A DNA stretch of 48,489 nt. It comes from Chthonomonadaceae bacterium. Its GTDB lineage: Bacteria; Armatimonadota; Chthonomonadetes; Chthonomonadales; Chthonomonadaceae. Where the stretch lies: NCBI GenBank assembly GCA_025054835.1, contig JANWZQ010000147.1, positions 1 to 48,489 on the forward strand, read 5' to 3'. Positions within the stretch are counted from its first letter, which is position 1. Every line of letters starts with the position of its first letter. The position numbers were made by a program, and so were the translations under genes. The notes under the pieces are model-generated. The model made no database searches. It saw only the letters and a list, made by a program, of their open reading frames with translations, and had not been told where the DNA came from. Below are positions 12,695 through 29,588 of the stretch, piece by piece.

Positions 12695-13840
12695 TCACGT
12701 GGAGTAGGGGTCGGCTGCATCGCGCAGAGCGTCCCCCACAAAGTTGTAGCCGATCACCACCAGCACCACCGGAACGGCTGGCAGCAACAACCACGGGTAG
12801 TGCAGCACCACGGTCACGCGTTGCGCCTCCTCCAGCAGGACTCCCCAGCTCGTCAGCGGGGGACGGATCCCGAGGCCCAGGAAGCTCAACGCCGTCTCTC
12901 CAAGGATCATGCCCGGGATCGCCAGGGTCGCCACCACGATGATGTGGCTGTACGCGGTTGGCAGGAGGTGCCGGGTCAGGATATACCAGTGTCCTGCACC
13001 GGCTGCGCGTGCCGCCAGCACAAAGTCCTGCTCGCGCATGGCCAGCACCTTGCCGCGCACCTGCCGCGCCAGGCCGCCCCACCCCAGCAGAGACAGGATC
13101 ACCGTGATCCCGAAGTACACCTGTATCCCCGTCCAGTGTGGAGGCAGGGCCGCCGCCAGAGCCATCCACAGCGGGATCGCAGGAAACGCCGAGAGCAACT
13201 CGATCAACCGTTGCATCAACAGGTCGACTACCCCGCCCCAGTAACCGGAAATCGTGCCCAGGATCGAGCCCAGCAGCACACTCAGCAGCACACCCACCAG
13301 CCCTACCGTCAACGAAATACGCCCCCCGTAGAGGATCCGGGACAGCAGATCCCGACCCATGCGATCAGTGCCCAGCAGGTACATCGGCCCATCCGACCCG
13401 ATCAGGTGCAGGTCACACGGGAAGATCCCCCACAGCCGGTAGGGATCTCCGCGGTGCAACAGCCGTACTGGATAACGTCGGGAGATATCCTGAGTAAAGA
13501 TCAGCTCGCGCGTCTCCGGGTCGCGCGTCTGGGTCAGGCCGTATACAAACGGCGGCCATGAGAAGCCATCCGGGCCACGGAAGTGGATCGTCTGCGGGGG
13601 CACGTAGCGCAGGCGCGCATTATCCCGGTTCGCGTCGTAGGGCGCGAAGAACTCGGCAAACAGCGCCATCCCGTAGAAGACCATCAACACCGTGCCGCCA
13701 ATCAGCGCCAGCTTGCTACGCCGGAACCGGCGCCAGACCAGCTGCCGATAGCTGAGCTGACCGGGATCGACGCTGGCATTCGCCACGAGATTGCCCCTGT
13801 CTGGCGTGAGGTCCACCGCACGTGCATCATGCTCACTCAT
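12695..13840 (-). CDS. Opp/Dpp-type ABC transporter permease (OppC-like) with long periplasmic insert
   Basis: A 381-residue inner-membrane permease and last gene of the importer operon. The first membrane helix (about 45-65) is followed by APYD, and the characteristic LGTDRMGRDLLSRI motif comes at about 156-170. The 85 residues between them are much longer than in typical OppC, where about 20-25 are found, and contain FRGPDGFSWPPFVYGLTQ and RYPVRLLHRGDPYRLWG. The EAA-type loop is AARAAGAGHWYILTRHLLP, which docks on the ATPases. I recall similar inserts in a subset of bacterial oligopeptide/oligosaccharide importers. Its start overlaps the end of the OppB-like gene by eight bases. Confidence 0.92.
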   Translation of the reverse strand: MSEHDARAVDLTPDRGNLVANASVDPGQLSYRQLVWRRFRRSKLALIGGTVLMVFYGMALFAEFFAPYDANRDNARLRYVPPQTIHFRGPDGFSWPPFVYGLTQTRDPETRELIFTQDISRRYPVRLLHRGDPYRLWGIFPCDLHLIGSDGPMYLLGTDRMGRDLLSRILYGGRISLTVGLVGVLLSVLLGSILGTISGYWGGVVDLLMQRLIELLSAFPAIPLWMALAAALPPHWTGIQVYFGITVILSLLGWGGLARQVRGKVLAMREQDFVLAARAAGAGHWYILTRHLLPTAYSHIIVVATLAIPGMILGETALSFLGLGIRPPLTSWGVLLEEAQRVTVVLHYPWLLLPAVPVVLVVIGYNFVGDALRDAADPYST

Positions 13841-14822
13841 AGCGGATCCTCGGATCGGCCCATGCCAGCGCGATATCTGCCAGCAGGTTGCCGATGATCA
13901 GCAGAAGGCTCATGAACAGGATAATCGTTCCCGCCAGATACATATCCTGATCCTGCAACGCCTGCAGGAGCAACGGCCCCACGGTAGGCAGGTTCAGCAC
14001 AATGGAGACGATCGTGGTTCCGGAGAGGATCTCTGGCAGGCTCATGCCCATCATGCTGATCAGGGGATTGATCGCGATACGCGCCGCGTGCCGCACCACC
14101 ACCACGCTTTCCTTCAGGCCTTTCGCCCGCGCGGTGCGCACAAACGGCTCACCCAGCACATCCAGCAGGTTCCCGCGCATCACCCGCATCAATGCCGCCG
14201 TGCCGTTGAGCGAGATCACGATCAACGGCACCCACAGGTGATTCAGCAGATCCATCACCTTGCCCCAGGACCACCCGCTCATCTGCTGATAGTAGGGTGA
14301 GAACAGGCCAAACAGGGGTACCCCGAACACCTGATACACCACCACGATGATCACCAGCGCGATCAGGAAGCCCGGTAACGACATCCCGAAGAACGCCAGC
14401 AACGTCAGCATGTTATCCGACCAGTGGTAGCGGTGTGTGGCTGAATAGATCCCGATCGGGATCGCCAGCGCGTAGGTGAAGAGTAGCGAGCCCACCGAGA
14501 GCATCACGGTAAACCCCAGCCGCTCGTAGATCAACTCATTAACCGGCTTCTCGTATCGAAACGAGTCGCCGAAATCGCCCCGGACGAACCCGCTCACCCA
14601 CTTCCAGTAACGCTCGGGCATGGGGCGATCCAGCCCGTACTGCTTGCGCAATTGCTCGGCCTGCGCCAGCGAACTGCTGTCCCCGTACTGCTGTTCCAGC
14701 TGCGCGATCCGCTCGTCCAGATAGTCTCCCGGAGGCAACTGAATGATGACGAACGACAGGATCGAGATCGCGATAAGCGTGGGAATGGCCAGTAACAGGC
14801 GCCGGACAATGTAGTGGATCAT
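13833..14822 (-). CDS. Opp/Dpp-type ABC transporter permease (OppB-like)
   Basis: A 329-residue inner-membrane permease. It begins [19 protein letters not shown], the usual OppB first helix, then has an external segment containing QYGLDRPMPERYWKWVSGF and GDFGDSF, five further helices and the EAA-type coupling loop ARAKGLKESVVVVRHAARIA. Length fits the family. Together with the OppC-like permease it forms the membrane channel for a substrate delivered by the binding lipoprotein at 14819-16798. It overlaps that gene by four bases (ATGA) and the OppC-like gene by eight. Confidence 0.94.
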   Translation of the reverse strand: MIHYIVRRLLLAIPTLIAISILSFVIIQLPPGDYLDERIAQLEQQYGDSSSLAQAEQLRKQYGLDRPMPERYWKWVSGFVRGDFGDSFRYEKPVNELIYERLGFTVMLSVGSLLFTYALAIPIGIYSATHRYHWSDNMLTLLAFFGMSLPGFLIALVIIVVVYQVFGVPLFGLFSPYYQQMSGWSWGKVMDLLNHLWVPLIVISLNGTAALMRVMRGNLLDVLGEPFVRTARAKGLKESVVVVRHAARIAINPLISMMGMSLPEILSGTTIVSIVLNLPTVGPLLLQALQDQDMYLAGTIILFMSLLLIIGNLLADIALAWADPRIRYE

Positions 14823-16798
14823 GGTCGTGACCCCGTTGCCGAAAGGTGCGCCATCTGGCCGGGTGGAGACCAGTTGTCCGGCGCGAAGAAGAACGTCTCC
14901 GGGTAGCTTGTTGCCGGGGTGGCCGGCGCCCAGGGCCCCATGGTGCGCATCTCTACGGGCACATTACGGAACCGGTTTTTGGCGATAATGATCGCCGGGG
15001 TGTCGCTCACCGTGCCGATGGCGAATAACCCTTCCTCCGTGTGCAGGCGGATCGCCTCCAGCACCAGAGCGTGCGCCCGGTTGATGTCTCGTTCGCGCTT
15101 GATCGCGTCATAGATGTCCAGCAGACGTTTCATGATCCCTTCGGGGGGCTCTCCCTCCTTGCCACCCGTTTTGTACCACTTCCCCACCTGTGCATGCCAG
15201 TACACGTCCGTGGTCGGGAACACCCAGTCCGGATAGGTGAACAGGTCCATCTCTGCCTCGCCGTGCACCGAGATTTCGAACTGACCCAGCTTCTGTCGCA
15301 GGGAGAACTGCGCCGAAGGCCAGTTGCGCAGACGCACCTCGATACCCAGCTTTTCCCACCCGTCCCGCACGATGACGGCCTCATCGATCTCGTAGCTTGT
15401 GATACTGGCGGGTGGCAGATCGATGGTCAGCTGCAGACGCTTTCCGTCCGGGCGGAGCCGGTAACCCTGCGCGTCCCGGCGCGTCAACCCCATGGCGTCC
15501 AGATAGCGATTGGCCTGTTCCAGGTCGAAAGCGGCGTACGAACGTGCCCAGCGTTCAAAAACCGCGCGTCCTTCCGGCGTGTTGAAATGCCACGCCTCCC
15601 GACTGATGGTCGCCTGTTTGGGCGTCGCCAGACCGCGCCATGCCACTTCATTGCACTTTTCCCGATCCACGGCCAGTGATAGGGCCTTGCGGAAGCGCAC
15701 GTCCCGCACCAGTGACCGCAGTACCGGGTCCGGGGGAGACCAGTTCACCAGAAAGGAAGTCATCCCTCCCGAGGCCTCGCTCCAGAGGATCACCCGGTAG
15801 TCCCCGCTCCTGCGGCCATGCATGTACAGCCCCAGATCCCGGGGGTCTACCAGACGGAACTGCGCGTCTACCTCCCCGGCAAGGATCTTCAACACCCGCA
15901 CCTGCGCGTTAGGAACGTACACTGCCTCCACACGGTCGATGTAGGGCAGTTGCCGCCCCAGAGGGTCCGTCATGTAGTAGTAGGGGTTGCGCTCGAACAC
16001 CATTTTGAACCCCCCGTCCTCGATGGCTTTCAACTTCCAGGGCCAGAGCGTCGGGCGATCCGGGTTGAAGTGCGAGCGGTTCTTCTTGTCGAAGACCTTG
16101 TAATCGGTATAGGCCGGGTTGTACTTCGGGTCAAATTGCTTCAGGTAGTGCTTGGGCGTGTTGTACTCATCGCTCCACCAGAATCCGGTAGCCAGATGCA
16201 GAGGCACGTACCAGTTAGGCCCTGCAAACTTGAGCACGAACGTGTACCGATCCGGGGTCTCCCATCGGGGCATCTTCCCGTTGACCAGCGCCCAGAAGGG
16301 CCATGTCAACCGTTGTTTCTGCTCTGTGCAAAGCTCCGCCCAGTAGGCCAGATCCTCTGAGGTGAACTCCACCCCATCCGACCATTTCAGGCCCCGGCGC
16401 AGATGAATGGTGAGACGAGTCCCATCCGCGCTGTACTCCCATCGTTTCGCCGTACCGGGTTCCAGCCCGGAGGCGTCCCACTTCCAGCGCATCAGGGGAG
16501 CATAGCCAGCGATCATCTTGTACATCCCCAGGTCCGGGTTATCCACCATCATGTGCCATGTGCCCCCGTAATAACCGGGCCCCTCGCAGGGATGCACTAC
16601 CAGGGGTTCCTCGGGCAGGCGTTGCTCCAGTGGGGGCAATTTCCCGGCTCGCACCAGGGCGGTCAGCATGGGCGATTCCCGGGCTTGCAACCCCCCATCC
16701 GGGTGTGGACGCGATGTGGGCTCCGGCGCGCGGCACCCCCCTGTCCACAGCAGGAGCCCTGCGAACAGGAATGTGTAGACACAGAAGCGGTACTTCAT
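14819..16798 (-). CDS. Family 5 extracellular solute-binding lipoprotein of the ABC importer
   Basis: A 659-residue SBP_bac_5 protein with lipobox WTGGC at about residue 22, so it is anchored outside the inner membrane. Family signatures include [36 protein letters not shown] and the later [17 protein letters not shown]. At 659 residues it is about 100 longer than classic OppA. Members bind peptides, nickel chelates or, in several thermophiles and soil bacteria, oligosaccharides; sequence alone does not settle which. The neighbours (DUF4838, glycosidase-like barrel, sugar dehydrogenase) favour a carbohydrate, as inference. The gene sits between the ATPase and permease genes, overlapping each by four bases. 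Confidence 0.93.
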
Positions 16799-17847
16799 GG
16801 CGCACTCTCCTCACAGGCAGCGGGCTCTGACCCCTGCATTCCCTGCAGAGCCAGCTCATCAGCGAGGTGACAGGCTACGGAATGATCGGGCCCCACAGCG
16901 CGCAGCACCGGTTCCTCCTGTGCACAGATCGGGCGCGCGTACCGGCACCGCGGGTGGAAACGGCATCCCGACGGTGGGGACGCCGGGCTCGGAACATCGC
17001 CCCCCAGGCGGATCCGTTGTCGCGCACGCTGGACATACGGGTCTGCTACCGGCACCGCCGAGAGCAGGGCCTCCGTGTAGGGGTGGCGTGGTGTGGCGAA
17101 CAGAGTGTGTGTGGCTCCAATCTCCACGATTTTGCCCAGATACATCACGGCCACCCGGTCACTGATGTGCGCCACCACTCCCAGATCATGCGCGATGAAG
17201 ATGTAAGCAAGTCCGAACTTTGCGCGCAGGTCCGTCAGCAGGTTCAGGATCTGCGCCTGCACGGACACGTCGAGTGCCGATACGGGCTCGTCGGCGACCA
17301 CCAGATCGGGGTGCAACGCCAGGGCGCGGGCGATCCCGATCCGCTGGCGCTGGCCGCCGCTGAACGCGTGCGGGTAGCGGCGGGCATCGCTGGCGCGCAG
17401 GCCCACAGCCTCCAGCAGCGCGCAAACCCGCTCCTGCAACGCGCGTCGTCCCCGGCACACCCGATTCACCACCAGTGGCTCCGCGAGGATGTCTCCGACC
17501 GTCATGCGCGGATTGAGGGAGGACTGCGGGTCCTGAAACACCATCTGCATGCGCGGGCGCAGGCGCTTCAGCTGGGAGGCGGACAGGGTCGTCAGATCGA
17601 CCGGGCCTGCATCGGTGTGTAGCCATACGTGGCCCTGCGTGGGCTCGATCAGGCGCAGCAGGCACCGACCCACAGTTGTCTTCCCGCACCCGCTCTCGCC
17701 CACAATGCCCAGCGTCTCCCGGCGACGCAGAGTGAAGCTCACGCCATCTACCGCGCGCACCTGCCCGACCACCCGGCGCAACAGTCCGTGTCGGATCGGG
17801 AAATGCTTGCGCAGGTCTTCGACCTCCAGCAGCAAATCGTCATGCAC
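16795..17847 (-). CDS. Opp/Dpp-type ABC transporter ATPase (OppF-like)
   Basis: A 350-residue ATPase. Walker A is [12 protein letters not shown], the signature is [19 protein letters not shown] and Walker B is [14 protein letters not shown] with the switch His in YIFIAHDLG. The C-terminal oligopeptide_HPY region ([19 protein letters not shown], with four Cys) is typical of Opp/Dpp ATPases, where related Cys clusters can bind an Fe-S centre. It pairs with the OppD-like ATPase to drive import. It overlaps the OppD-like gene by eight bases and the binding-protein gene by four. Confidence 0.95.
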
Positions 17848-18856
17848 CGTTTTTGCTCTCCTGACGCGCCCAGCACCGCACCCGGTGTCCCGGTGTCATC
17901 TCATGCAGATCCGGTATCTGCTGACACTGTGCGAACTGCTCAGCACATCGTGGGCCGAAAGCGCACCCTGCTGGCATCGCCAGCAGGCCGGGTACCGTGC
18001 CGGGGATCGCGTACAGAGGACCCTGCGCTCTGCGTCCCGGAGAGGGAACAGAGCGCAACAACCCGCGTGTGTATGGATGCTGCGGGCGGTAGAACACGGC
18101 CTCCGCAGATCCATGCTCCACGATCTGTCCGGCATACATCACAATCACCTCGTCCGCCAGATCCGCGATCACGCCCAGATCATGACTGATCAGCAGCACC
18201 GCCATGCCCATCTCGGTCTGCAGATCCCGGATCAGATCGAGGATCTGCGCCTGTACGGTCACGTCGAGCGCTGTCGTCGGCTCATCGGCGATCAGCAGTT
18301 TCGGGTTGCAGGAGAGGGCCATGGCGATCATCGCCCTCTGTCGCATGCCACCTGAGAGTTGATGCGGGTAATCGTTCACGCGCAGGTGGGGCGCGGGAAT
18401 GCCCACACGCGCCAGCATCTCCACGGCGCGGGCGTGCGCTGCCTGCCGGGAGAGCCTCTGATGCAGGCGCACCATCTCGGCAATCTGCTGCCCTACCGTG
18501 TAGACCGGGTTCAACGAGCTCATCGGCTCCTGAAACACCATGGCGATCTGCGCACCCCGGATCGCACGGATCGCGTCGCTGTGCGGGGGAAGCGTGGCGA
18601 TATCGAGGGGAGGCGCGTCGGGCTTCGCGTAGAAGAGCATCTGTCCGCTCACAACACGCCCGGGAGGCGGGATCAACTGCAACAGCGCCAGACCGGTCAT
18701 GGTCTTGCCGCACCCGCTCTCGCCCACCAGACCCAGCGTCTGGCCACGGCGCACCGTGAAGCTCACGTTGTGCACCACCCGCGCCACCCGCTCTTCCATC
18801 GGGAAGACGACCTGCAGATCACGCACATCAATCAGGGTATCGGCATCAGGAGACAT
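17840..18856 (-). CDS. Opp/Dpp-type ABC transporter ATPase (OppD-like), first gene of the operon
   Basis: A 338-residue ATPase with Walker [15 protein letters not shown], signature [19 protein letters not shown], Walker [17 protein letters not shown] and the switch region [10 protein letters not shown]. The C-terminal [18 protein letters not shown] segment is the OppD-type Cys-rich tail. As the first gene of the minus-strand importer operon it is divergent from the secreted barrel protein at 19042. GGAGA lies about 11 bases before the start. The intervening 185 bases hold a 9-base inverted repeat that could be an operator shared by both directions. Confidence 0.95.
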
Positions 18857-19041
18857 CGACAGGGATCTCCGTTCACTGGCAGGACGCGGCTTCTTTTTGG
18901 CGCAATAGCTGTAGATTCCTGCCGCAGTCCTGCTCGTCGGCGGTCAGGCGAGGCTCTGACGCAACCCGGCAGGACTGTGCGCGGATGGCGGCGAAACACT
19001 ACCGCGTGTTCGTCGGGGGCTCATGCGTGACGGAGGGGGCA

Positions 19042-20193
19042 ATGAGCAATGTCTTTTTGACCGCAGTCCTGATGGGGCTTCTCTGCCTCTGCCTGAGCGC
19101 GCAGCAGACCGGGCTATCACCACGCCCGCACGTGCAGGTGCGCGGTATCTACGGGGGCATGCCTGCCTCGCTCATGACAGACGGGAAGACACTGGCCGAT
19201 CACGGCGTTAACGCCGTCTGGATCCACTCCGGCGCGCTGAACGCAGAGGAGATTGCCCGGATCAAGCAGCAGGGCGCCCGGGTCTTTGCGGAATTCAACA
19301 CGATGCACGAGGCCGGCTACCTGAAGGAGCACCCCGATGCGGCACCCATCGGTCCCGACGGCATGGTCTCTCCTCCGCCGGGCGGATGGCAGGGCATCTG
19401 CCCCACCCACCCGGGCTATCGCGCCGAGCGCATGGCCGCCTTCCGCAAAATCCTTACAGACTATGACATTGATGGGATCTGGCTGGACTATCACCACGGT
19501 CATGCAAACTGGGAGCAGGCGCAACCCGAATTGCCGGACACCTGCTTCTGCACGCGTTGCCTGACGCAGTTTCAGAGAGATACTCGCATCAGTCTGCCCG
19601 AAGCCTCCACTGCAGAGAAAGCCACGTTGTTGCTGGGTGTCTACCGTGCCCAATGGGTGCAGTGGCGTTGTGACGTCTTCACGAGCTGGGTGCGGGAGTT
19701 CCGCGCTATTCTGAATGCGGTACGGCCGGGCGCCCTGCTGGGCACGTTTCACTGCCCGTGGGCCGATGTTGACTACGACGGCGCCCTGCGTGACAAACTG
19801 GCCATCGATCTGAAAGCGCAGGCTCGCTACCTGGATGTCTTCAGTATCATGCCCTATCACGCGCGCTTCGGGCACGCCGATGATCCGGAGTGGATCTCGC
19901 GGCAGATCGCATGGCTGGGCAGATACTTGGGGGTGCGGGGGCGCCCGCGCGAACGCCTGAAGATCTGGCCGATCGTACAACTGGCGGACTGGGGCGAGAA
20001 GGTGCCGGTGGCGCAGGTGCACACCGTGCTGGAGCACGCCACGCGCCCGCCCGCTACCGGCGTGATGGTTTTTGCCTGGGGTGGCTTGCAGACGCAGCCT
20101 GAGAAGGTCGAGGCAATGGCCGCGTTCTACCGCACTATTCGCCCGGCATCCGCTCCACGCGCCCGTCCGCCGCGCCGCCCCGCTGGAGGGTGA
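19042..20193 (+). CDS. Secreted glycosidase-like barrel protein
   Basis: A 383-residue protein. The start ATG 19042 follows GGAGGGGG closely and gives a compact signal peptide (FLTAVLMGLLCLCLSAQQ); the longer frame from 18985 would place a charged leader before it. The pattern matches hypothetical glycosyl-hydrolase-like TIM barrels: HGVNAVWIHSGAL, ARVFAEFNTMHEAGYL, TDYDIDGIWLDYHH (a candidate catalytic Asp), then FCTRCLTQFQRDT with a CxCxxC motif, DVFSIMPYHARFG and TGVMVFAWGGLQ near the end. Substrate and activity are unknown. It is divergent from the importer operon and 141 bases before a sugar-type dehydrogenase, so a role in carbohydrate use is likely but unproven. Confidence 0.75.
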   Translation: MSNVFLTAVLMGLLCLCLSAQQTGLSPRPHVQVRGIYGGMPASLMTDGKTLADHGVNAVWIHSGALNAEEIARIKQQGARVFAEFNTMHEAGYLKEHPDAAPIGPDGMVSPPPGGWQGICPTHPGYRAERMAAFRKILTDYDIDGIWLDYHHGHANWEQAQPELPDTCFCTRCLTQFQRDTRISLPEASTAEKATLLLGVYRAQWVQWRCDVFTSWVREFRAILNAVRPGALLGTFHCPWADVDYDGALRDKLAIDLKAQARYLDVFSIMPYHARFGHADDPEWISRQIAWLGRYLGVRGRPRERLKIWPIVQLADWGEKVPVAQVHTVLEHATRPPATGVMVFAWGGLQTQPEKVEAMAAFYRTIRPASAPRARPPRRPAGG

Positions 20194-20334
20194 GTGCGGG
20201 GCACCCGGTACCACCCGGGATGCACATGCAATCGGGGACGTGAACTGCCCGCATGCAGAGGGACAGGCCTCTGTTCCTGCACCGGAGCGATCTGGTTGAC
20301 TACCTGCCGGAGACGGCAGCAACGGAGAATAACG

Positions 20335-21462
20335 ATGGCACTTCGAGTCGGACTGGTTGGCCTTCGTGGCATCGGAGTCACCCATGCCAGTGCGTACAAA
20401 AACGACCCTCTGGGGGAACTGGTCGCTGTGTGTGATGTGATCCGGGAGCGAGCCGACAGTGTGGCTGAGCAGTTTGGCGTACGAGCCTACTACCGCCTGA
20501 CGGACCTGCTGCGCAACGAGGAAGTGGATATCATCGACGTGACTACCGGTGGCTACGAGAACGGCAGCTGGCACTTTGAGCCCGTCATGGAGGCGATTGA
20601 GGCCGGCAAGCATGTGCTGGTGGAGAAGCCGTTGTCCAACGACATCCGTGAGGCGCGTCAGATGGTGGCGCGGGCTACCGAGAAGGGCGTGTACCTCGGA
20701 TGCAATCTCAACCATTACTTCACGCCCCCGGCCGAGCGCGCCCGACAGTACATGGACGAGGGCCGGGTGGGAGAACTGGTCTACTGCCTCCACAAGATGG
20801 GCTTCTCGGCGGGCGAGGGCACCTACCAGCCCAATCGCAATGCCCGCTGGTGGGACCTGCCCTACGCGCATTTCAAAGCGTTCCTCTCGCACCCGTTCAG
20901 TGTGATGCGCCACTTCTGCGGGGACATCACGCACGTGCAGGCATTCGTCAATCGCCCCGGCGTGCGCCGCACCGCGCGCGATGTAATGCTCTCCACTGTG
21001 AGCATCCATGTGCGGTTCGCCAACGATTGTGTGGGGTACCTGTTAAGTCAGCGTGGAGATGCCACCTATGGTCTGGGCGGGTGGTGGAGCCTGGAAGTGG
21101 CTGGCACGCGGGGCACGTTCTGCATCGAGAACTGCATCGAAAAAGTGACGTTCTGGCCCGCGCCCGGCACCGGGGAAGCAGGCGACCCGGCGAAGATGTC
21201 CGGGGGCACCTCCGGGGGACCGGAAGTGACACACTCGGGGATCACGGATTTCTCGCAAACGTTCCCGCGCCGGATCCACGCGTTTCTGGAGGACATCACC
21301 AACGGCGTGCACCCGGAGAACCTGCGCGCTTCCGGCCGGGACGCGCTGGCCGCTCTGGAGTACACCTGGGCCGCTATGGAGTCGTATGAACTCGGCGGAG
21401 CACTGGTGCGGCCGCATCCCCTGCCGCCCCTGCATGGGGACCCGAGAACGATGGTGGACTGA
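20335..21462 (+). CDS. Gfo/Idh/MocA-family oxidoreductase
   Basis: A 375-residue cytoplasmic NAD(P)-dependent dehydrogenase. The start ATG 20335 has CGGAGAA upstream and puts the Rossmann strand VGLVGLRGIGVTHASAY at the N terminus. The family Lys motif is VLVEKPLSN, and the C-terminal half has the expected beta-sheet domain (YGLGGWWSLEVAGTRGTF). Family members oxidise or reduce sugars, inositols and sugar acids or act as glycosidases with NAD. The exact substrate cannot be told. The position after the secreted barrel gene suggests processing of a sugar product. The longer upstream frame to 20194 is not supported by a ribosome site. Confidence 0.9.
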   Translation: MALRVGLVGLRGIGVTHASAYKNDPLGELVAVCDVIRERADSVAEQFGVRAYYRLTDLLRNEEVDIIDVTTGGYENGSWHFEPVMEAIEAGKHVLVEKPLSNDIREARQMVARATEKGVYLGCNLNHYFTPPAERARQYMDEGRVGELVYCLHKMGFSAGEGTYQPNRNARWWDLPYAHFKAFLSHPFSVMRHFCGDITHVQAFVNRPGVRRTARDVMLSTVSIHVRFANDCVGYLLSQRGDATYGLGGWWSLEVAGTRGTFCIENCIEKVTFWPAPGTGEAGDPAKMSGGTSGGPEVTHSGITDFSQTFPRRIHAFLEDITNGVHPENLRASGRDALAALEYTWAAMESYELGGALVRPHPLPPLHGDPRTMVD

Positions 21463-23459: not shown

Positions 23460-25004
23460 ATGTTGCTGGCACATGACATCGGTACTACGGGGAACAAGGC
23501 CACACTGTTTGACGCCTCGGGGGCTGTGCTCGGCGCCGCATTTGCCCCGTATGCAACGCGATACCCTCGGCCGGGATGGGCCGAGCAGGATCCGGAGGCG
23601 TGGTGGCGCGCGGTATGTCTCTGCACGCGACAGTTGCGGGACCAGTGCCCGGAGGCTATGGAACGGCTGGAGGCCGTCGGGTTCTGCGGGATGATGAATG
23701 GCTGTCTGCTGGTGGACGCACGCGGGGTGGCTCTGCGCCCGTGTCTGATCCATGCGGACCTGCGCAGTCAGGAGCAGTGTGAGCGGATCGCGCGCGCAAT
23801 TGGCGCTGAGACAGCTTATCAGAAGACCGGGAACCGGATCGCACCCTACTTCACCCTGGGGAAGCTGGCCTGGCTGGTAGAGCATGAGCCAGATGTGGTG
23901 CGGCAGGCGCGCTGGTGTCTGCAGGCCAAAGATTACATTGTGGGGCGAATGACCGGCGTGTGGGGCGTCACCGACGCATCGGACGCCTCACTGACCGGTT
24001 GTTTCGCACTGGAGAAGGGCGTGTGGGATGCCGATCTGGTGGCGGCCGGCGGGTTTTCGCAGGAACTGTTGCCACAGGTGCTTCCTTCTGCGCAGGTGAT
24101 TGGCCGGGTGCACGCTGACGCCGCCACAGCAACGGGATTGCGCCCCGGTATCCCGGTGGTGCTGGGTGGCGGGGACGGCGCGTGCGCCACGGCAGGCGCG
24201 GGTGCGGTACGACCCGGTGACACGTACCACTACCTCGGGGGCACGTCATGGGTGGCTGTGGTGACAGACCGCTACATGCCCGACCCGACCGGACGCGTGT
24301 CGGTGTTCTGCGGATTGGAGCCGGGCCAGTGGGTGACCTATGGCACGGTGCAGTCGGCTGGAAGTAGCGTGGACTGGTTCCAGTCCGCGATCGGGGTGGG
24401 ACCCGATGCCAGTACCGACGCGTTCGCAGCCCTGGAGCAGATAGCGGCTTCCGCGGCGCCGGGATGTGATGGCCTGTTCTTCCTGCCCTATCTGGCCGGA
24501 GAGCGCTCCCCGATCTGGGATGCGCGAGCGCGCGGTGTCTACTTCGGACTGACAACCGCCCATGGCCGGGCGGAGCTGGCCCGGGCCGTTCTGGAAGGCG
24601 TGGCGTTTGCGCTCCGGAGCAATCTGGTAGCCCTGGAGGACCTGGGCCACATGCCGGAGAGCGTACGAGTGCTGGGAGGCGGCATGCGCAGTGCGCTCTG
24701 GCGGCAGATCTTTGCCGGGGTCTACGGGAGGCCATTACGCCCGATGATCCGGTTGCTGGAAGCGACCTCCTGCGGGGCCGCGATGGCAGCGGCCGTGGCC
24801 ATCGGTCTGTTCCCGGACTACACGACCGCAGCCGCGTGCTTTGCTCCGGAAGGGGAGGAGGAAGCGCCGGACCCGACGTTGTGCGCGGTGTATGCCCGCG
24901 CATTCGCCTTTTTCCAGACGCTTTATCCCGCTCTGGCGGCACGTTTTGCCGCGCTGAGTGCGCTCATGGCCGGTGATGCCGGATATGAGGAGCCACACGT
25001 ATGA
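23460..25004 (+). CDS. FGGY-family carbohydrate kinase, xylulokinase-like
   Basis: A 514-residue sugar kinase. The N-terminal phosphate loop is AHDIGTTGNKATLFD, followed by PGWAEQDPEAWW; the middle has VVLGGGDGACATAGAGAV and YHYLGGTSWVAV; and the C-terminal half has LPYLAGERSPIWD and LGGGMRSALWRQIFA, all as in xylulokinase-type FGGY kinases. These phosphorylate a pentulose or other sugar with ATP before it enters central metabolism. The exact sugar cannot be fixed from sequence. TAAGGAG lies upstream. Its stop overlaps the start of the large barrel gene by four bases, so the kinase and a secreted glycosidase-like protein are translated from one message. Confidence 0.9.
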   Translation: MLLAHDIGTTGNKATLFDASGAVLGAAFAPYATRYPRPGWAEQDPEAWWRAVCLCTRQLRDQCPEAMERLEAVGFCGMMNGCLLVDARGVALRPCLIHADLRSQEQCERIARAIGAETAYQKTGNRIAPYFTLGKLAWLVEHEPDVVRQARWCLQAKDYIVGRMTGVWGVTDASDASLTGCFALEKGVWDADLVAAGGFSQELLPQVLPSAQVIGRVHADAATATGLRPGIPVVLGGGDGACATAGAGAVRPGDTYHYLGGTSWVAVVTDRYMPDPTGRVSVFCGLEPGQWVTYGTVQSAGSSVDWFQSAIGVGPDASTDAFAALEQIAASAAPGCDGLFFLPYLAGERSPIWDARARGVYFGLTTAHGRAELARAVLEGVAFALRSNLVALEDLGHMPESVRVLGGGMRSALWRQIFAGVYGRPLRPMIRLLEATSCGAAMAAAVAIGLFPDYTTAAACFAPEGEEEAPDPTLCAVYARAFAFFQTLYPALAARFAALSALMAGDAGYEEPHV

Positions 25005-28000
25005 AGCAGAGTGTGATGCGAATGGCAGGTACAGGCCCGATGCGGCTGCTCGGACTGGTGCTGACAGCCCTGATAGCTCTGCCCAACAGGGGAGGAGCGC
25101 AACCGGCACCGGCGGGCCCCCGGTTACTGTACGGCGTGAACGTGGTGTGGGGCGACAACGGTGGTGGAGCCGGCTGGGACCGTGATGGGGGAAAGAGGGC
25201 GCGTGCCCTGGTGGACCTGATGAAATCGGCCGGGGTGACCAACACACGGGTGGGAATTGCGTGGGGCGACGTGGAGCGCGTACGCGGAAGGTACGACTGG
25301 AGTGGCACCGACCGTTTCCTGCGGTTCGTGCGATCGCAGGGGCTGGTGCTGACCTGCGTGGTGGCCGTGATCCCGGACTGGGCCGGGGATCCGGACCCGG
25401 CGGTGCGAGGGCTCTTCGCTGCCCGGGGAGTGCCACATCTGCGCGGCGTCATGGCTCCGGACCCGAAGTTCTACGCAGACTTCGGCCGCTTCGCTTACGC
25501 GCTGGGGCAGCGCTACCGGGGAGTGATCCAGCGATGGGAGTTCTGGAATGAGCCGGACGGAATGGGCATGCCGATCGTGGTGCGCAACGACGCAGGGCAA
25601 CCCGTGGATCTCCGTTACGGGGGCGATCCGGCGGTCTACACGCGCCTGCTGGCCATTTTCTCCCGCAACGTCAAGCGGGCCGATCCCTCCTGTCAGGTGG
25701 CCATTGGCGGACTGGCCACGCATCGCACGGACTTCCTTCGCGGGATCTACGCGCATGGGGGACAGAAATTTTTTGACGCCGTGGCACTGCACCCGTACAG
25801 CACATCCGGGCCGTTGAATTTCCGCTGGATCGAGGAGTGCCGGCGTGTGCTGGAGCAGAAGGGGGACGGGCACAAGAAATTCTGGCTGACCGAGTGGGGG
25901 TGGAGTACCTACCCGGACGATCCGGGGGGAGTGACGGAAGGACATCAGGCGCGTCTGGTGCGTGAGAGCCTGCAGGAGATGCGCCGGCGGCCCTACATCG
26001 AGCAGGCCTGTTACCACACGTTGAACGACTGGCGCACCGACGAGGGCGACCCGTTAAGCCTGATGAGTATGGGACTGTGCCGACGGGACCTGCGGCCGCG
26101 ACCGGCCTTCATGGCATTTCAGGAAGCTGCGCTGGGACGTTCCATGCCAGAACGCGCAGCGCGACGTGTGGCGTGGGTGGCGGATCTGCCGGCGTCGCTG
26201 GCAGTGGCGCACGTGGACGTAGGAATGGACCGGGTAGAGGGGGCCCTGTCGCGCGGGTGGCTCGGCGTATCGTTCCCGGCCCTGTCGGAACTGCAGTCCC
26301 TGCTACCCCGGATGAAGGCACTGGGCGCGCCCTTCGTGCGGCTCAACCCGTTTGCCGCACGAGAAATAATGGCGCTGTCTGCAGACGGCACACCGGAAGT
26401 CCGATGGGAGCAGGTGGATGCGCTTCTGGAGCGCGTGGCTCAGGAAGGAGGCCAGACGATCCTGGCAATGGTACCCCCGGTGGGTCTGTCGCCGGATCGG
26501 TGGAAAGATCTGGTGACGCAGGCAGTGCAGCGCTACGGCAGAGAGACCCGCTTCAGAGTGGTGCGCTGGGAGATGGCCGTGCCGCAACGCACAGCGGGCG
26601 AGACAGAGCATCTGATGCGGGTCTACGCACCCGTGTTCGCGCGCGTGGTGCGCACGCTCCTGCCAACAACACCGGTCGGGTTCCATGTGCTGGTGGGCGG
26701 GGATCCCATAGGAGCGATGTATCGCCTGGCGAGCGCATGCACCGAAGCAGGGATCACCTTCCATTCCTTTTCGTGGCGATCGGCGGGCAGCGCAGAGGAA
26801 CTGGGCCCCGTGGTGCGTCGCCTGCGAGGCGTGCTGGCGGCGTTCCCGGGGTTGCGGCACGTGTACCTGCTGCCGGAATGCACCGCCTTCGCATCGCCGG
26901 CACAGGTGATGGCGGTAACGGCCCGCATGAAAGACATCGCGCCGGCCTCAGAGCCGAACGGCGCACCGGGCTTTCTGATCGCTGCAGAAGGGTTATCAGA
27001 ACCCTCTGGAGAGCGCCTGTGGCGGGCGCTGGAGTGGATCAATCGGGTTGCGGGATCGCGCCTGCCTGTGTCGACAGACTGGAGTGGAGTGCGATGTCTG
27101 GCGGCACGTCATGCGGACGGGGCAACAGTGCTGGCATGGCGTGAAGATACAGATACGCAGGATACAGCGGTGCATCTGCGCCTGCGAGACCTGCCACTGC
27201 AGTCCCGGCATGGCCTGAGGGTGTCGCGCTACGTGCTGTCCGGTGCAGGGGCCGTGGCCGTCACCGATACGCCGGGGGGAGCCGGAGGCGGTCTGGTTCT
27301 GCCAGTGGTTTTGCGTGCCGGGGAAGCGGCGCGATTGGAGCTCGTGCCGCGGCGTTCGCCCGCCCCGTTGCAGGTGTCGCTCTCCGTGCCTCGTTTCGTC
27401 TGGTATAGCGGGGAGTCACCGGAGGTACTGGTAACGATACGCAACGTCTCCGATCGGTTGCAACCCTCCGGGATCATGCTGAGCAGTCCGGTGCCCGGTG
27501 TGGTGCCTGTGGCCCTGGCAAAGACACCGTCGGTGCTGCTGCCGCCGGGCCGCTCCCGGCTGGTGCGTTTCCGGCTGAACGCGCCCGCAGTGGCGGAAGA
27601 CACGGACGTCACGGTGAACGTGCGCGTGGGAGCCGACAGTCATGCAGCCACAGGATGGCGCGTGGCGGCGTCTCTGGCGGCGGAACTGGAAACGCCACGA
27701 CTGGACATGGAGGCGCTGGACGATCCCGTGCGTGCGCGCGTCCGGGTAACAAACCGCGGGAAGACAGGGCAGATGGTGACCGTGCGCGCCGGAGACGAAG
27801 CGCGGGTAGAGGCGTTGATCCCGGGCGGGGGGCAGCAGACGTTGCAGGTGCAGCTGAAAGCCCCGGAGCGGACGCCGGGACTGTACGCCGTACCCATCAC
27901 CCTCGAGAACGGGGGGCGAGTTCTGAGTGCGCTATCCGTTCTGGTAGGAGTGCCGGTAGCCTGCCGGTATATGCGTGCGCAGCCAGAGATCGATGCGGAC

Positions 28001-28576
28001 CTGAAGGAGTGGACCGACGCCTTCCCGATCGGTATGGGGCAGGCAGAACAGGTCCGCCTGAAGATGTGGGGAGGATTGAGGGACCTGTCGGCGATCGCCT
28101 ATACCGGGTGGGACACACGCTACCTGTACGTGGCCTGCGCAGTGGCAGACGATGTTCCCGGCACATCGTATCCCGCGATGGACCTGTGGCGTGGCGACTC
28201 TTTGCAGGTGGCTGTTTCGGCCCTGCGGCGTTCGGCAGGAGCTGGCGGTGGATACGGCCCGGGTGATCATGAGTTCGGGTTCGCCCTGATAGCGGGAGAA
28301 CCCGTCGCGGTGCGGTTTCACGGGGAGAATGGGCGCGTCGGGCCCGTGTCAGAGATACGCGTGGCAGTACGGCGCGACGGGGACCGGATGTTCTACGAGG
28401 TCGCAATCCCCTGGAAGGAGCTGGCGCCCGTCCGCCCCGAGCCCGGCACCGTGCTCGGCCTCTCTCTGCTGGTGAATGATGACGATGGGCACGGGCGGGG
28501 CTACATCGAGTGGGGGGGCGGCATCGGGGACGTAAAGCGCCCCGAGCAGTTTCCGCCCCTGCGGCTGGTGCGGTAA
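25001..28576 (+). CDS. Large secreted tandem-barrel glycosidase-like protein with NEW3-type and CBM9-like domains
   Basis: A 1191-residue protein with a signal peptide (LLGLVLTALIALPNRGGAQ). Residues about 40-390 form a GH5/GH39-like TIM barrel: RWEFWNEPDG carries acid/base Glu184 and FWLTEWGWST carries nucleophile Glu298. Residues about 395-700 repeat the same layout, but the acid/base site reads VVRWEMAVPQ, with no Asn-Glu, while Glu626 in VYLLPECTAF lines up with Glu298. About 780-970 are beta-sandwich repeats like the NEW3 domain of alpha-galactosidases. The last 200 residues (EIDADLKEWTDAFPIGMG, WDTRYLYVACAVADD, FYEVAIPWKELAP) match CBM9/DOMON-like sugar-binding domains. Substrate unknown. 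Overlaps the kinase gene by four bases. Confidence 0.85.
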   Translation: MKQSVMRMAGTGPMRLLGLVLTALIALPNRGGAQPAPAGPRLLYGVNVVWGDNGGGAGWDRDGGKRARALVDLMKSAGVTNTRVGIAWGDVERVRGRYDWSGTDRFLRFVRSQGLVLTCVVAVIPDWAGDPDPAVRGLFAARGVPHLRGVMAPDPKFYADFGRFAYALGQRYRGVIQRWEFWNEPDGMGMPIVVRNDAGQPVDLRYGGDPAVYTRLLAIFSRNVKRADPSCQVAIGGLATHRTDFLRGIYAHGGQKFFDAVALHPYSTSGPLNFRWIEECRRVLEQKGDGHKKFWLTEWGWSTYPDDPGGVTEGHQARLVRESLQEMRRRPYIEQACYHTLNDWRTDEGDPLSLMSMGLCRRDLRPRPAFMAFQEAALGRSMPERAARRVAWVADLPASLAVAHVDVGMDRVEGALSRGWLGVSFPALSELQSLLPRMKALGAPFVRLNPFAAREIMALSADGTPEVRWEQVDALLERVAQEGGQTILAMVPPVGLSPDRWKDLVTQAVQRYGRETRFRVVRWEMAVPQRTAGETEHLMRVYAPVFARVVRTLLPTTPVGFHVLVGGDPIGAMYRLASACTEAGITFHSFSWRSAGSAEELGPVVRRLRGVLAAFPGLRHVYLLPECTAFASPAQVMAVTARMKDIAPASEPNGAPGFLIAAEGLSEPSGERLWRALEWINRVAGSRLPVSTDWSGVRCLAARHADGATVLAWREDTDTQDTAVHLRLRDLPLQSRHGLRVSRYVLSGAGAVAVTDTPGGAGGGLVLPVVLRAGEAARLELVPRRSPAPLQVSLSVPRFVWYSGESPEVLVTIRNVSDRLQPSGIMLSSPVPGVVPVALAKTPSVLLPPGRSRLVRFRLNAPAVAEDTDVTVNVRVGADSHAATGWRVAASLAAELETPRLDMEALDDPVRARVRVTNRGKTGQMVTVRAGDEARVEALIPGGGQQTLQVQLKAPERTPGLYAVPITLENGGRVLSALSVLVGVPVACRYMRAQPEIDADLKEWTDAFPIGMGQAEQVRLKMWGGLRDLSAIAYTGWDTRYLYVACAVADDVPGTSYPAMDLWRGDSLQVAVSALRRSAGAGGGYGPGDHEFGFALIAGEPVAVRFHGENGRVGPVSEIRVAVRRDGDRMFYEVAIPWKELAPVRPEPGTVLGLSLLVNDDDGHGRGYIEWGGGIGDVKRPEQFPPLRLVR

Positions 28577-28586
28577 GGAGAGTGTC

Positions 28587-29588
28587 ATGCGGTTCCTGTA
28601 CCTGCCAGTGGTATCCGTGACCTGCGTGCTCTTCATGATCACCGGCTCATCAGGTGCCCTGTTAGCGCTGGAGAAACCGGTCCCGCTACGGCCCCTGCAG
28701 GGCGTGCGGCGCGTGCTGTTTCTGGGCGACAGCATCACGTATGCGGGTGGCTATGTGGAATGGATCGATGCCTGCCTGTTCCGGTACGCGCCAGAGCAAC
28801 GCTATGAGCTGATCAATCTGGGCCTGCCCAGCGAGACGGTCTCGGGACTGTCGGAGCCGGGGCATGCCGGAGGCGCCTTCCCCCGGCCAGATCTGCATGA
28901 GCGCCTGGAACGTGCATTGACGCGTCTGCATCCCGACATGGTGGTGGCCTGCTACGGAATGAACGACGGGATTTATCATCCGTGGGACGCAGGTCGGTTC
29001 GCGAGGTACCGTGCGGGGATGCAACGTCTGCAGGAGACCGTGCGCCGGGCCGGAGCAACGCTCTGGGTTGTGACGCCACCGCCTTTTGACGCGCATCCCG
29101 TTCGAGCACGGGCGTTGCCCGCCGGCCAGTCAGGTTACTCCAGCGATAGACCATTCGAAGGATACGATGCTGTGCTGGCGCGCTACGCCGCATGGTTGCG
29201 AGGCAAGCGGCGCGCAGGGTGGAAAGTGATCGACGTGCACGCGTCGTTGCGCGCTGTCCTGACCGCCAGACGGCAGCAGGACCCGGACTTCGTTCTGGCC
29301 GGCGACGGTGTGCATCTGGAGGCATACGGGCACCGTCTGGTAGCTCGGGAGATCCTGCGGGCATGGGGTGCATCCTCGATGGCTCTCTTGGAACTGGAAA
29401 GAGCTACGCTGCTGCCGGCAGACGGTATGGCGCTGGTGCGGGAGCGCCAGCAGATCCTGCGCGACGCGTACCTGAGCGCTGTGGGGCACCGGCGCCCGGG
29501 ATTGCCAGCGGGTATGCCTGTTGCAGAGGCCGAGGCGAAAGCACGACAGCTGGAGGAGCGCATCCGGGAAATGGTACGCACGCGTTGA
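28587..29588 (+). CDS. Secreted SGNH/GDSL-type hydrolase
   Basis: A 333-residue protein with a hydrophobic N terminus (VVSVTCVLFMITGSSGALLA) predicted to be exported. SGNH blocks are complete: FLGDSIT (catalytic Ser49), GLPSET (Gly), CYGMND (Asn), and GDGVHL (Asp and His). The family includes carbohydrate esterases that remove acetyl groups from xylan and other glycans, as well as lipases. It starts ten bases after the tandem-barrel gene, so deacetylation of the same polymer is a reasonable inference. The C-terminal 70 residues (EAEAKARQLEERIREMVRT) are a charged helix. Confidence 0.87.
   Translation: MRFLYLPVVSVTCVLFMITGSSGALLALEKPVPLRPLQGVRRVLFLGDSITYAGGYVEWIDACLFRYAPEQRYELINLGLPSETVSGLSEPGHAGGAFPRPDLHERLERALTRLHPDMVVACYGMNDGIYHPWDAGRFARYRAGMQRLQETVRRAGATLWVVTPPPFDAHPVRARALPAGQSGYSSDRPFEGYDAVLARYAAWLRGKRRAGWKVIDVHASLRAVLTARRQQDPDFVLAGDGVHLEAYGHRLVAREILRAWGASSMALLELERATLLPADGMALVRERQQILRDAYLSAVGHRRPGLPAGMPVAEAEAKARQLEERIREMVRTR

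Follow-up and report, generated by a model that had tools for sequence, protein, structure and literature searches.

How one secreted protein came to carry two glycosidase-like barrels in tandem, and why the second should persist after losing a catalytic residue, are questions raised by a single gene in a 48,489-nucleotide stretch of a Chthonomonadaceae bacterium (assembly GCA_025054835.1, contig JANWZQ010000147.1, positions 1 to 48,489; the whole analyzed stretch is called the window here). The gene is an open reading frame at positions 25001 to 28576 on the forward strand, the strand of every feature of the protein described below; it encodes a secreted glycoside hydrolase (GH)-like protein of 1,191 residues, for which full-length orthologues were found. 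A first-pass annotation made from the DNA alone had read it as an internal duplication of one TIM barrel, with a second copy that lacked the acid/base glutamate yet kept the nucleophile. The motifs and residue numbers on which that reading drew were all recovered: RWEFWNEPDG (residues 178 to 187, with Glu184) and WLTEWGW (residues 295 to 301, with Glu298) in the first barrel, and VRWEMAVPQ (within VVRWEMAVPQ, residues 520 to 529) and VYLLPECTAF (which includes LLPECTAF, residues 623 to 630, with Glu626) in the second.

We modeled the two halves with AlphaFold2. Barrel 1 (residues 36 to 392; pLDDT 90.9, pTM 0.89) and barrel 2 together with a beta-sandwich (residues 394 to 802; pLDDT 87.2, pTM 0.85) were both predicted to adopt a (beta/alpha)8 topology of eight strands alternating with helices; the models behind the barrel boundaries were built on 13 sequences each. 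In barrel 1, Glu184 (positions 25550 to 25552) follows strand beta4 (residues 178 to 181) and Glu298 (positions 25892 to 25894) lies at the end of beta7 (residues 293 to 299). In barrel 2, Pro528 stands directly after beta4 (residues 520 to 527) and Glu626 at the end of beta7 (residues 622 to 627). Because both residues terminate beta7 in the models, Glu626 corresponds in topology to Glu298; the second half is a predicted TIM barrel, as the first-pass annotation had anticipated. Its view of the catalytic residues also held: motif and phylum comparison place Val527-Pro528 (positions 26579 to 26584) in the Asn-Glu slots of the acid/base motif, so that this catalytic residue is lost, and Glu626 (positions 26876 to 26878; motif and model) is retained as a remnant nucleophile.

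The two barrels were then assigned to families from the models, Foldseek and hidden Markov model (HMM) searches. For barrel 1 (residues 41 to 388, positions 25121 to 26164), the best Foldseek matches were the PslG structures 5bx9, 9g17, and 4zn2 (E = 4e-19), an HMM search of PDB sequences returned 5jvk (the best match) and PslG, and Pfam gave weak matches to Glyco_hydro_cc, GH42, and GH5. Its motifs and alignment to PslG pair Glu184 with Glu165 and Glu298 with Glu276, which serve PslG as acid/base and nucleophile, respectively (PMC11912335). Barrel 1 is thus a PslG-like, GH39-related barrel with catalytic glutamates at beta4 and beta7 and an intact dyad. The barrel 2 unit (residues 394 to 802, positions 26180 to 27406) consists of a degenerate GH39 TIM barrel (about residues 420 to 685) and a GH39-type beta-sandwich (about residues 697 to 783). 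The top 20 Foldseek matches of this unit were all GH39 enzymes, the nearest being alpha-L-iduronidase and GH39 beta-xylosidases, and all 12 PDB matches of its HMM at 1e-6 were GH39-type, including GH39 xylosidases and CmGH1. It combines a (beta/alpha)8 barrel and the accessory beta-sandwich of GH39 with a nucleophile glutamate at the end of beta7, and lacks the Asn-Glu acid/base pair at the end of beta4. The GH39 nature of barrel 2 was revealed solely through its relatives. Pfam, NCBIfam, and HMM scans of the window barrel 2 alone gave nothing useful (an Imm1 match at E = 0.11 is noise), and a Pfam scan gave no match to PF01229; the same profile detected the orthologues in genomes G017, G018, G027, G028, and G030 (E = 1e-15 to 3e-28). 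Since these orthologues match PF01229, we consider the window barrel 2 a GH39 domain by descent.

Did the second barrel arise from the first? The annotation had pointed to the same order of elements in both halves, and a profile-profile comparison (hhalign) bears this out (probability 96.6%, E = 5.7e-10, 242 colinear columns, 14% identity); the colinearity of the barrels therefore exceeds chance. This match is what speaks for an internal duplication followed by decay of copy two, but the stand-alone relatives of the two barrels are distinct. Barrel 1 occurs alone in G043 (361 codons), G056 (360 codons), and G216 (372 codons), with both glutamates present and 48% identity to the window barrel 1. 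Genome G222 encodes barrel 2 with its beta-sandwich, immunoglobulin (Ig)-like region, and CBM9 tail in the absence of barrel 1 (925 to 946 codons), again with both glutamates. In a tree of 67 rows, the fused barrel 1 copies formed one clade (99/88) adjoining the stand-alone barrel 1, the fused barrel 2 copies formed another (96/90) adjoining the barrel 2 of G222, and the two sets were split by a branch with 100/100 support, roughly one change per column in length. Constraining both barrels to one clade lowered the log-likelihood by 189 (approximately unbiased [AU] test, P = 2.4e-53 under the model used). The two copies are not each other's closest relatives, and we rejected tandem duplication, a scarcely credible origin; by sequence, the gene almost certainly arose by fusion. 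The barrel-to-barrel match reflects clan-level common ancestry (GH39/GH-A).

We also followed the fusion across genomes. Of 31 genomes of the order Chthonomonadales (Armatimonadota), 12 encode the protein in whole or in part, and the two-barrel form was absent from the remaining genomes among the 291 of the phylum. In a scan of 84,980 species seeded by the barrel 1 motifs, the two-barrel form appeared solely in loci matching the same Chthonomonadales genomes. The fusion thus seems to occur only in this order. Genome G017, on two overlapping contigs (L009 and L044), carries both dyads intact (WNEPDG/TEWGW and SNEPNG/GEWNAD), and the fusion probably happened once, in a Chthonomonadales ancestor in which both dyads were intact. 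Within f1, the family of the window, the two-barrel gene and a canonical PF01229 protein detected at 1e-20 do not occur together: of 17 genomes, 7 have the first (G000, G003, G005, G007, G012, G015, and G016), 5 the second (G001, G004, G009, G010, and G011), and 0 both, a mutual exclusion that may be due to phylogeny alone.

From this starting point, catalytic residues disappeared from both barrels. All seven f1 copies of barrel 2 lack Asn-Glu; Glu626 is present in six of the seven, the nucleophile being lost in G005. Family f3 is divided: G028 and G030 carry an intact barrel 2, and in G018 and G027 its acid/base is gone. Barrel 1 shows three substitutions of Glu184 (G015 E184K, G027 E184A, and G028 E184D) and one of Glu298 (G018 E298A). 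On the tree, these states require three changes of the acid/base of barrel 1 and, within the fused clade, one of its nucleophile, and two of the acid/base and one of the nucleophile (G005) for barrel 2. This makes a minimum of seven losses of catalytic residues, spread over both barrels; all genomes are drafts or metagenome-assembled genomes, and single-residue losses could include errors, though the f1 loss of Asn-Glu is common to seven genomes. At least 5 of the 12 genomes have no complete dyad (G005, G007, G015, G018, and G027), and no barrel 1 relative was found in the G005 and G007 genomes at 1e-15. As a control, other GH39 copies of the phylum (a set that also includes the fused G017 copy) kept Asn-Glu in 48 of 48 cases and the nucleophile in 46 of the 46 that covered it. 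The f1 copies of barrel 2 descend from a long branch (1.36 changes per column; the tip of the window barrel 1 measures 0.23), and identity of f1 barrel 2 across genera is low (27 to 32%). Two further observations concern barrel 1. In G012 (loci L007/L043, G012:C434), a deletion and a frameshift remove the segment ahead of the nucleophile, which may be gene decay or an assembly fault. In the Chloroflexota, three stand-alone barrel 1-like proteins (L071, L075, and L079, two of them from Caldilineales) have TAWGW for TEWGW, with Ala in place of the nucleophile glutamate, and keep the acid/base glutamate, possibly another pseudoenzyme clade.

We then asked whether barrel 2 is still constrained and, if so, where. 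In genus g4, ratios of nonsynonymous to synonymous substitution (dN/dS) were 0.07 to 0.17 for barrel 2, 0.09 to 0.14 for barrel 1, and 0.08 to 0.11 for CBM9, values that are rough because synonymous divergence exceeds 1. Since the ratio for barrel 2 is close to those of barrel 1 and CBM9, barrel 2 is under purifying selection. Reading frames are open in all f1 copies. Across f1 genera, identity at the catalytic face of barrel 2 was 22.7% versus 26.8% for the rest, and 282 of 300 random sets reached or exceeded the value of the face; against random barrel positions, 29 of 500 sets were as low. The best-conserved part is the strands (37% versus 28% for the whole barrel). Four loops beside the cleft are deleted in f1 barrel 2 (after residues 494, 532, 632, and 648), among them loops that bear -1 subsite residues in GH39. 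For barrel 1, the catalytic face was 68.5% identical versus 44.5% for the rest, a value for the face that none of 300 random sets reached. Even where the barrel 1 dyad is broken, the face is still better conserved than the rest, and 22 to 23 of 27 invariant face residues are kept in G015, G018, and G028 (16 of 27 in G027). A reasonable reading of this pattern is that barrel 1 of these relatives binds without cleaving.

Taken together, these results suggest an account that we hold, as a whole, to be moderately probable: a fusion in which barrel 1 works as an enzyme and barrel 2 has been retained structurally. Sequence evidence shows that a PslG-like barrel was joined in front of a protein composed of GH39 barrel, beta-sandwich, Ig-like domains, and CBM9. 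Barrel 1, which is likely catalytic, would act as a retaining glycosidase, probably endo-acting, on a polysaccharide, with Glu184 as acid/base and Glu298 as nucleophile, and the CBM9 domain would tether the protein to glycan. Barrel 2 is very probably no longer a normal retaining glycosidase; cleavage there would be gone, and sugar binding in the old cleft probably gone as well. Its core and beta-sandwich may connect barrel 1 to the Ig-CBM9 tail and hold the two in place, or they may have another structural or interaction role. A structural role is favored because the old active site is not conserved, the cleft loops are deleted, the strands are conserved, and the fold is constrained, and we lean slightly toward a barrel 2 that is mainly structural rather than a lectin acting through its old cleft. 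Several observations weigh against this account. G005 and G007 retain barrel 2 with no barrel 1 detectable at the threshold used, so a role as linker for barrel 1 is impossible there. In genus g4, conservation of the barrel 2 face equals that of the rest (0.739 versus 0.733), and a new surface function of barrel 2 in this genus is possible. Beside the old site, Arg522 and Pro625 are f1-specific and invariant, and together with Glu626 they could mark a re-purposed pocket or surface.

These same residues, which lie on the old catalytic strands, lend support to the idea that barrel 2 is a lectin-like pseudoenzyme whose re-shaped pocket binds glycan and helps barrel 1 or CBM9 to hold the substrate. 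Purifying selection on barrel 2 would fit such a role, as would the well-kept faces in three of the four relatives with a broken barrel 1 dyad. The f1 face, however, is no better conserved than random positions, and the loops with the -1 subsite residues are gone, so that we judge this explanation unlikely; these two findings also speak against the suggestion of the annotation that copy two might bind substrate through the old cleft. Barrel 2 could instead still be an enzyme of altered mechanism, with Glu626 as nucleophile and acid/base help from another residue, the substrate, or solvent. The retention of Glu626 in nearly all f1 copies agrees with this, and CmGH1 (5z3k), among the closest PDB matches of the barrel 2 profile, is weakly active in the absence of both glutamates. 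But the activity of CmGH1 is very weak, Asn, the acid/base glutamate, and four cleft loops have gone in f1, G005 has lost the nucleophile as well, and no conservation of the face is seen across genera, which together make a surviving activity improbable. Plain decay, with barrel 2 a relic carried inside the gene under little constraint, would account for the long f1 branch, the low identity across genera, and the repeated loss of dyads from both barrels; we consider it very improbable given the low dN/dS, the open frames and conserved strands of f1, and the persistence of barrel 2 where barrel 1 is missing. Beyond the structural account, we entertain tentatively that an originally bifunctional hydrolase is on its way to becoming, in this family, a noncatalytic secreted glycan-binding or structural protein: at least 5 of the 12 genomes are without a complete dyad, both barrels have suffered losses, and selection has kept the barrel 1 face and the fold.

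A putative Sec signal peptide, judged by eye from the sequence (MKQSVMRMAGTGPMRLLGLVLTALIALPNRGGAQ), covers about residues 1 to 34 (positions 25001 to 25102). Behind the beta-sandwich, weak matches mark Ig-like or weakly NEW3-like beta domains (about residues 790 to 985, positions 27368 to 27955), and a CBM9-like domain follows (residues 1024 to 1171, positions 28070 to 28513; PF06452, 37.9 bits against a Pfam cutoff of 23.4, E = 2.1e-9). The annotation had named both a NEW3-like and a CBM9-like domain. CBM9 was confirmed and was detected in all nine family members scanned; the NEW3-like assignment stayed weak, with an NPCBM_assoc match (E = 0.02) in one of nine members and an Ig-like family match in four of nine.

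The genes around the two-barrel gene offered a weak indication of its substrate. Upstream on the same strand, positions 23460 to 25004 encode the xylulokinase XylB (TIGR01312, above cutoff), whose stop codon runs into the ATG of the two-barrel gene in a 4-base overlap (ATGA). Downstream, a secreted SGNH/GDSL hydrolase (positions 28587 to 29588, forward strand; PF13472, E = 1.9e-15) begins 10 bases after the two-barrel gene, giving an apparent three-gene unit at 23460 to 29588. A conserved operon was rejected: the orthologue neighborhoods share only the two-barrel gene with the window, and their flanks differ. Because the neighborhood is not kept in orthologues, the xylulokinase and SGNH hydrolase give only a weak hint of pentose-rich glycans as substrate, and a xylan-type substrate, although possible, is doubtful. 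In the f3 genomes G018 and G028 (L133, 11679 to 12755; L135, 5064 to 6104), a similar downstream gene with a coiled-coil-like start was recognized by eye. Elsewhere in the window, the minus strand at 12695 to 18856 encodes a complete ATP-binding cassette importer of the oligopeptide type in overlapping genes (two permeases, a 659-residue binding protein, and two ATPases), and the plus strand at 18985 to 21462 encodes a GHL10-like putative hydrolase (402 residues, below Pfam cutoffs) with a Gfo/Idh/MocA oxidoreductase directly behind it.

Automatic annotation would label this protein a glycosidase or overlook barrel 2. Here the dead domain can be traced from the intact, ancestor-like G017 through graded loss in close relatives, and the set offers a way to test why a catalytic domain outlasts its catalysis in a fusion whose partner barrel may work. 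It also cautions that domain counts are unsafe for predicting the sugar-cutting capacity of Armatimonadota. Our literature searches found no tandem or two-GH39 proteins and nothing relevant on dead glycosidase barrels, which is not proof of absence. Already known are a GH39 enzyme that lacks the canonical glutamates (PMC6933502) and glycoside hydrolases that are catalytically dead yet serve a role (PMC6549527); what appears new, in that it was not found in the literature searched, is the fusion of a PslG-like GH39 barrel to a degenerate xylosidase-type GH39 barrel with repeated, two-sided loss of dyads.

Among known systems, barrel 1 most resembles PslG of Pseudomonas aeruginosa (GH39; 5bx9, 4zn2, and 9g17), with which it shares the fold, nearly the whole profile, and both catalytic glutamates. 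Identity is only about 21%, however, PslG has no fused second GH39 barrel, and its Psl substrate is not implied here. The best PDB HMM match, 5jvk, which we take to be BcGH39 of Bacteroides cellulosilyticus WH2 (the PDB file labels it "uncharacterized"), aligns with barrel 1 in two separated stretches, with no second GH39 barrel or CBM9 in the match. Barrel 2 and its beta-sandwich have the same two-domain fold as GH39 beta-xylosidases (1px8, 2bs9, and 6uqj) and alpha-L-iduronidase (4kgj and 5ndx), from which the window barrel 2 differs by Val-Pro for Asn-Glu, the four deleted cleft loops, and the lack of detection by PF01229. CmGH1 of Croceicoccus marinus (GH39, 5z3k) has Gln157 and Tyr264 for the two glutamates and weak p-nitrophenyl-glucosidase activity, and its Q157A variant is as active as the wild type (PMC6933502). 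Like the window barrel 2, it is a natural GH39 that lacks canonical catalytic glutamate; CmGH1 is a single, weakly active barrel in which both are lost, whereas the window barrel 2 has lost the acid/base only, together with cleft loops. The GH28 pseudoenzymes of Phytophaga beetles are catalytically dead glycoside hydrolases that have been retained, with a demonstrated importance for the same pathway (PMC6549527). Unlike barrel 2, they are separate duplicated genes of another fold in eukaryotes, unfused to an active domain.

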